From contig JAFQEL010000037.1 of NCBI GenBank assembly GCA_017399065.1, forward strand, positions 1 to 64,000: a stretch of 64,000 bases of DNA, read 5' to 3'. The notes under the pieces are model-generated. The model worked only from the letters and a program-made list of their open reading frames with translations, was not told the DNA's origin and ran no database searches. Made by a program: the position numbers and the translations under genes. Of this stretch, positions 53,532-54,036 are shown one piece after another. This DNA comes from Clostridia bacterium (GTDB taxonomy: Bacteria > Bacillota > Clostridia > Oscillospirales > Acutalibacteraceae). Numbering within the stretch: position 1 is the stretch's first letter; every line of letters begins with the position of its first letter.

Positions 53532-53606
53532 TGGGGCGTCGTCAAGCGGTAAGACAACAGACTTTGACTCTGTCATTCGCTGGTTCGAATCCAGCCGTCC
53601 CAGCCA
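53532..53606 (+). tRNA. tRNA-Gln (anticodon TTG)
   Basis: 75 nt with encoded CCA. Acceptor TGGGGCG/CGTCCCA (one G-T wobble); anticodon stem ACAGA/TCTGT around CTTTGAC; T-arm GCTGGTTCGAATCCAGC. It lies after a terminator and no separate promoter is obvious, so it may depend on read-through. Confidence 0.94.
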
Positions 53607-53645
53607 AAAATCGACAAGTTTCGACAGAGACTTGTCGATTTTACT
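53607..53645 (+). terminator. Terminator after tRNA-Gln
   Basis: A 13-bp perfect stem, AAAATCGACAAGT (53607-53619) with ACTTGTCGATTTT (53630-53642), beginning directly at the CCA end. Confidence 0.82.
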
Positions 53646-53824
53646 TTTTCACTATTAACTCTTCACTTTTCACTCTTCTCTTTCAAAACTTGTCGATTAG
53701 GTAATAAGTAATAGTGAATAGTGAAGAAGTAAAGGTATCCGCTTTGCGGATGATTTGAAATTTTGCAAGGGTTCGAAGTCATACGCAAAACTGCCGAAAA
53801 TATCTTTTTCGTAGCCCATAGCCA

Positions 53825-53860
53825 GAAAAAAGCACTTGCAATACTGCAAGTGCTTTTTTC
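53825..53860. terminator. Long terminator-like hairpin with AGCACTTGC stem
   Basis: A 16-bp perfect stem, GAAAAAAGCACTTGCA (53825-53840) with TGCAAGTGCTTTTTTC (53845-53860), 4-base loop. No gene ends nearby on either strand, so it may be a relic or belong to an RNA in 53645-53825. The 53645-53824 stretch itself holds only TCACTATT-type simple repeats and no gene. Confidence 0.6.
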
Positions 53861-53865
53861 AACTA

Positions 53866-54036
53866 AGTTTGCCCTTACGGGCAAGTGAAGTTGCTTTGCA
53901 AGTTTTTTCAGGCAAACTTAACTTCACGTTGTGCAAATGCACAACACTTCATTATACCGACAGGTATAACTTCACTTGTCGCAGACAAACTTCACTAAAT
54001 TTTGTATATAACATACTGTTTGCGATAAGCAAACTA
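53866..54036. repeat. Array of six mini-hairpins with GTGAAGT/ACTTCAC linkers
   Basis: Hairpins: TTGCCC/GGGCAA (53869-53884), TTGC/GCAA (53891-53901), GTTGTGC/GCACAAC (53928-53945), TATACC/GGTATA (53953-53968), TTGTC/GACAA (53976-53988) and TTTGC/GCAAA (54019-54033). Linkers are GTGAAGT on the left and AACTTCAC on the right (53920-53927, 53968-53975, 53988-53995), so the array is itself folded around its middle. Stem sequences differ from unit to unit while linkers are kept. No open frame or promoter fits it. Confidence 0.7.

Follow-up and report, generated by a model that had tools for sequence, protein, structure and literature searches.

A solo array of linked mini-hairpins behind a clostridial tRNA-Gln gene and its likely kinship with intervening-sequence elements

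What kind of element is made of small palindromes with unlike stems, strung together by one short linker that reverses orientation halfway? Such a block lies in the 64,000-nt stretch of clostridial DNA analysed here (the window), where a first-pass annotation had counted six palindromes between 53866 and 54036. Three features beyond that annotation shape our answer: a link to genes for the 23S rRNA intervening-sequence (IVS) protein, a four-helix bundle (FHB); plain arrays of inverted heptanucleotides; and opposite strand polarity of the two arms.

Anatomy of the window element

Sequence reading together with repeat finding confirmed that the palindromes are joined by a GTGAAGT/ACTTCAC linker that flips. 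The array is real and represents a single copy of a repeat built to a fixed grammar, in which AACTAAGTTTGCC is followed by (GTGAAGT-hairpin)n, a centre GGCAAACTTA and (ACTTCAC-hairpin)n. With bounds taken from 130 parsed copies, the whole element runs on the + strand from AACTAAGTTTGCC to the last ACTTCAC (53861–53995), is solo and contains no protein gene; these coordinates bound it better than those annotated. All six palindromes exist and five belong to the element, but the sixth (GTTTGCGATAAGCAAAC, about 54017–54033) lies past the last linker with none flanking it, and we place it outside.

All parts of the element are on the + strand. The 5' end AACTAAGTTTGCC (53861–53873) combines a degenerate terminal linker with the arm of an outer stem, a 10-nt inverted repeat, and is able to pair with 53911–53920 or locally with 53879–53884; the outer-stem assignment is based on both sides of the pairing differing from one linker family to the next. 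Hairpin 0, TTGCCC-TTAC-GGGCAA (53869–53884), seen by reading and folding, is followed by the left linker GTGAAGT (53885–53891), the single one kept here where relatives usually have three, by the left arm/centre hairpin TTGCTTTGCAAG (53891–53902), and by the centre GGCAAACTTA (53911–53920), whose complementarity to the 5' end TAAGTTTGCC emerged from an inverted-repeat search and family comparison. The right arm then reads linker 1, ACTTCAC (53921–53927); hairpin GTTGTGCAAATGCACAAC (53928–53945), which was also folded; linker 2, the variant ACTTCAT (53946–53952); hairpin TTATACCGACAGGTATAA (53952–53969), likewise folded; linker 3, ACTTCAC (53969–53975); hairpin TTGTCGCAGACAA (53976–53988); and linker 4, ACTTCAC (53989–53995), where the element ends. 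Two left units have been lost from the window copy.

The inverted arms give the element terminal inverted repeats, and its complementary ends can form a stem from TAAGTTTGCC/GGCAAACTTA plus the linkers. The block also folds better than shuffled sequence, a comparison the annotation had proposed: measured against dinucleotide shuffles, the + strand has z = −7.0 and the − strand z = −4.6, and for neither strand did any of 200 shuffles fold as well. At the Rfam gathering score the window contains four tRNAs only, and the array matches no curated family. The contrast with CRISPR drawn by the annotation holds as well: conserved and variable parts alternate in both, but here the variable parts are self-complementary and the conserved linkers flip, and no cas gene was noticed among the ORFs near the array. 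BOX elements of pneumococcus are modular and foldable, with a variable number of internal units; compared by description only, they differ in having neither inverted linker arms nor FHB relatives.

Copies elsewhere and the polarity of their arms

The same genome carries the repeat at about five other places (the contig junction C43/C2, C24, C6 and twice on C10), and the linker-hairpin grammar, whose absence from other genomes would have counted against the annotation, recurs in several relatives. Matches to the centre motif, a few of them by chance inside genes, occur patchily in 10 of 59 related genomes, one of which, although incomplete, has eleven. A pattern scan of a species-level genome collection found at least 117 stretches with the grammar; among the 80 matches listed, the hosts are Clostridia, Clostridiales, Oscillospiraceae or Ruminococcus, mostly from ruminant gut. 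Viral contigs scanned for the GTGAAGT grammar gave no match.

From Clostridia, 130 distinct copies could be parsed, with a typical length near 165 bp. In the modal copy, three left linkers precede the centre GGCAAACTTAACTTCAC and three more linkers follow on the right, and 98 copies have three right-arm units; the parser often takes part of the central hairpin for a fourth left linker. In these copies and in the window, the left 7-nt unit is the reverse complement of the right one (GTGAAGT/ACTTCAC). As the annotation had proposed from a single copy, linkers are fixed and stems vary, and the stems covary: end-anchored pairs are Watson–Crick in 90% of cells in the right arm and 76% in the left, the latter lowered because central hairpins are mis-cut, compared with 61% and 50% when the 3' halves are re-dealt.

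The loops are strand-specific: right-arm loops read GN(N)A when taken on the + strand, left-arm loops when taken on the − strand. If only C-G-closed hairpins whose loops are of the TN(N)C or GN(N)A type are counted (many other hairpins fit neither), cTN(N)Cg occurs 42 times in the left arm and never in the right, whereas cGN(N)Ag occurs 61 times in the right arm and never in the left. Mispairs lean the same way, G-T to A-C being 28:6 on the right and 4:8 on the left (Fisher p = 0.003). From this loop polarity and these mispairs, selection seems to act on the + strand of the right arm and on the − strand of the left arm, although the parsed copies share ancestry, so that the counts are non-independent events and the loop polarity could come down from few ancestral units. 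Loops of the d(cGNNAg) and d(GNA) types are unusually stable in DNA hairpins (Nakano 2002 and Yoshizawa 1997, as cited in PMC2984261 and PMC7432603). The annotation had offered a transposon end, a recombination target, a structured RNA or a replication-linked element, and a mobile element fits; the opposite polarity of the arms speaks against a folded + strand RNA being active on its own. The loop polarity likewise weakens the idea of a nested + strand RNA "fishbone" acting alone, although the linkers may still pair.

Arrays with other linkers follow the same plan. In every closely read hairpin family the right linker is the reverse complement of the left one, and the 5' end is complementary to the centre, in letters that differ by family; between families, outer stem and linkers change together on both sides. 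One locus (L019) is a chimera of the left arm of the GTGAAAT family and the right arm of the ACTTCAC family. Four others (L051, L144, L152 and L157) have a longer GGGGTTCCCCGAAG-type hairpin module in place of a small hairpin, as if another palindromic repeat had been inserted into the loop.

FHB genes beside hairpin and heptad arrays

Sister arrays with about ten other linkers adjoin genes for the FHB protein (PF05635/TIGR02436, "S23", the 23S rRNA intervening-sequence protein), a relative of which has a solved structure (2rld). Five FHB genes are present in the window's own genome: four lie in hairpin arrays, with linkers GTGAAGT, GTGAAAT, GCGATAT and AGTTTTATT, and the fifth lies behind a plain heptad array. 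Across relatives, a hairpin array stands upstream of 28 of 66 FHB loci compared with 4 of 240 controls (p ~2e-17), and a plain period-7 array upstream of another 24 of the 66 compared with 2 of 546 controls. The two sets are disjoint and together account for 52 of 66 FHB genes; at the remaining 14 the detectors used found no array, and some of these have weak arrays on inspection. What defines the class in cis is its array of inverted 7-nt units, which takes two forms. In one, tandem units flank the FHB gene as plain heptads; in the other, to which the window copy belongs, a mini-hairpin follows each unit, its stem free to change while staying paired.

Two further arrays in the window bear on these forms. 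Directly behind the tRNA-Gln terminator is a second solo element of the plain type, TTCACTA TTAACTC TTCACTT TTCACTC ... AATAGTG AATAGTG AAGAAGT (53640–53733, no strand assigned), with 24-nt inverted arms and a period-7 score of 21 of 28; the window has no other period-7 hot spot. At L165, an FHB gene is preceded by an array of this family. A third array, a left arm only with linker AGTTTTATT (161–256, + strand), probably belongs to the type that adjoins FHB genes at L163 and L173, a placement that rests on reading its sequence against those two loci.

One way to explain the association is that the arrays serve FHB genes as regulatory leaders, solo copies being what remained when the gene was lost. 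In about eleven loci, including the C6 copy in the same genome, the FHB start codon indeed lies 10–25 nt past the last ACTTCAC (about 60 nt in one more). However, elsewhere the gene lies between the arms (L163, L245 and L256) or has arrays on both sides, and most of the 130 parsed copies have no adjoining FHB gene, which makes the leader explanation very improbable. Some loci place the gene after both arms, and in others the left arm is repeated behind it (L070, L077, L079 and L167). The gene-site-gene layout of L079 raised a likeness to integron attC sites, which was dropped as a main reading; most copies are single. Heptads added in the manner of a telomerase would be pure speculation.

Protein and linker also go together by descent. 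On a tree of 39 FHB proteins, linker identity changes 13 times, whereas shuffled labels require 27.7 ± 1.4 changes with a minimum of 23; FHB clades go with their own heptads, a congruence that simple co-inheritance would produce too. Exchange does happen, since GTGAAGT is found with two FHB clades that are unrelated to each other.

Could the arrays be MITE- or REP-like, with movement supplied by an unlinked transposase (a Y1/HUH enzyme recognising hairpins in single-stranded DNA, for instance) and the FHB gene only a frequent passenger? There are two inverted arms, recognition of single-strand hairpins is plausible, and the window's own genome has three Y1_Tnp genes, one about 4 kb from the C6 copy. 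On the other hand, clustering of the genes that neighbour the copies returned FHB and a resident rumA-type gene as the two largest clusters, with a small cluster of three helix-turn-helix proteins, and no Y1 or other transposase recurred beside the arrays. FHB association, by contrast, extends across ten linker families and at least five phyla. We therefore regard the unlinked-transposase explanation as improbable, if clearly less so than the leader explanation. Known systems of this kind compare accordingly: MITEs share the terminal inverted repeats, but among the neighbours of the copies it is FHB genes, and no transposase, that recur; REP/BIME repeats with RAYT transposases are likewise intergenic hairpins, often inversely paired, but window-type arrays lack a conserved stem, a GTAG-type foot and an adjoining RAYT, the nearest Y1 being that 4 kb from one copy.

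The association with heptads reaches beyond Clostridia. Period-7 flanks are present at 15 of 15 annotated plasmid FHB genes from Cyanobacteriota, Spirochaetota, Chloroflexota, Bacteroidota and Bacillota; upstream and downstream flanks are inverted where readable, and the best score is 19–28 of 28 on at least one side, against a control maximum of 18 (n = 166 windows), which the upstream scores of L271 and L274 do not exceed and that of L273 barely does. Hairpin arrays also stand upstream of FHB on two gut phage contigs, and Nostoc FHB genes are bracketed by heptad arrays. In Azospirillum, an FHB frame lies inside the 23S rRNA gene (RF02541) with inverted heptads on both sides; this single example is a classical IVS. 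Some FHB genes with heptads lie in or beside defence operons (L277, L276, L273, L265, L274 and L280), namely cas2-cas1, hsdS-hsdR, DISARM/BREX and DUF1156-Swt1 HEPN, which suggests insertion rather than a role in defence. IVS-protein genes inside cas operons have been listed as a possible CRISPR-associated function (PMC3936711); a simple reading is that they may be there as inserted elements.

Two known groups of repeats come closest to the window array. IVSs with the S23/FHB protein, of the Salmonella, Leptospira, Coxiella and Azospirillum type, share inverted complementary arms, FHB in the coding members and patchy distribution, and the Azospirillum IVS also has inverted heptads; the window copy differs in lying outside rRNA (tRNAs are the only RNA genes found in the window), in being geneless and in having its heptads split by mini-hairpins. 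Heptanucleotide tandem repeats (cyanobacterial STRR, GGGAATC in Xanthomonas and Nostoc, TAACTGA in Beggiatoaceae) share an intergenic 7-nt unit of family-specific sequence, but in the window element at 53861–53995 the 7-mers are separated by hairpins, and it is the neighbour at 53640–53733 that has the period of seven.

Placement, turnover and a proposed mode of movement

Immediately before the window element stands a terminator-like 16-bp hairpin (53825–53860, + strand, found as an inverted repeat), a target-type sequence, and the insertion region is headed by tRNA-Gln (53532–53606, + strand, ARAGORN). This placement is general: a hairpin of at least 8 bp ends no more than 6 nt from the element start in 111 of 127 copies, compared with 98 of 359 control spots, and of 116 upstream genes 94 share the strand of the element and 22 do not, whereas downstream genes are unbiased. 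Group IIC introns also sit just behind terminator hairpins in one orientation, but the element has no Rfam ribozyme match and no RT.

Such an orientation bias is what an RNA element of 3' UTRs would show, one that protects, terminates or is processed by RNase III in transcripts, spread by duplication and was kept for its RNA function. The very stable fold of the + strand RNA agrees with this, as does the excision of IVS relatives from RNA by RNase III (PMC4990558). However, loops and mispairs of the left arm indicate the − strand, like arrays also precede FHB start codons and flank FHB genes on both sides, and occurrence is patchy at orthologous sites; on balance we find a primary RNA function unlikely, about as much so as an unlinked transposase or slightly less.

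That patchiness is visible at the tRNA-Gln 3' flank. Of the orthologous flanks in members of the genus, three (G000, G003 and G008) have GTGAAGT copies and three (G002, G004 and G006) have no array; in the remaining two (G001 and G005), arrays built on other linkers occupy the site in the same orientation. This amounts to turnover at a single site, which fits insertion, with loss also possible; the presence and absence here, with the copies scattered through the genome, fit a mobile element. The aligned flanks, among which no close strains form a clean empty/filled pair, reveal no target-site duplication, and comparison of near-identical genomes turned up no single-step insertion. The downstream galactosidase-like gene, taken as anchor for an empty site, had its sole other match in G010, where the upstream context is different. 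Upstream of the array at L201 (G003) the 3' end of tRNA-Gln occurs a second time in partial form, and the window keeps a degenerate trace of it at 53772–53860; it could be an old integration scar. A separate group of FHB-gene arrays, with two linker families (L029, L049, L080, L101, L146, L153 and L195), lies at the extreme 3' end of a rumA/RlmD-type 23S rRNA methyltransferase gene, possibly a preferred site.

Because no FHB gene is present at the window copy, its class membership rests on its relatives, and we call it a derivative and not a full member. Assignment of the array to the FHB element class is nonetheless highly likely. The best explanation, which we consider probable, is that it is a solo, protein-less derivative of an IVS-type (FHB) element that sits behind a terminator-like hairpin near a tRNA cluster. 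That the element is mobile is likely.

How such an element might move can be sketched from its relatives. FHB is related to Avd of diversity-generating retroelements (PMC10053308) and an IVS protein is a pentameric ring (PMC4990558), so nucleic-acid binding is plausible by analogy. The ring-shaped protein would recognise the heptads; whether FHB recognises the arrays at all strikes us as close to evenly balanced, tilting slightly against. Each arm would work while folded as a single strand (+ for the right arm, − for the left), and pairing between left and right linkers may join the ends; single-stranded DNA as the active form is a more tentative proposal. New copies would land 3' of genes, behind terminator-type hairpins, through strand exposure and host or other enzymes; the element encodes no known recombinase or mobilising enzyme, and Y1 and RT genes are present elsewhere in the window's own genome. 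Copies without FHB, such as the window's, would be mobilised in trans, and the same genome has an FHB gene beside a GTGAAGT array.

In the limited open-licence literature searched we found nothing that directly links FHB genes to heptad or hairpin arrays, and FHB/S23 genes did not come up in a term search of two papers on heptanucleotide repeats (PMC4679880 and PMC4692102). The window element is best regarded as a variant of the IVS/FHB kind that this literature does not describe. A unifying reading would be a larger discovery: FHB/S23 would define a pan-bacterial class of minimal mobile elements with a family-specific heptamer code; its members would appear as 23S rRNA IVSs, as STRR heptad repeats or as clostridial hairpin-heptad arrays, three states of one class, and would be moved by FHB alone with host enzymes via folded single-stranded ends. 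We offer it as a conjecture, held with less conviction than any of its parts above.

Function and origin of IVSs and the S23 protein were called unclear 25 years after their discovery (PMC4990558), and heptanucleotide repeats have no settled role (PMC4692102). A family-specific 7-nt code that travels with a protein ties the two together, and the window array may be a clue to how IVS-type elements and some bacterial 7-letter repeats connect.
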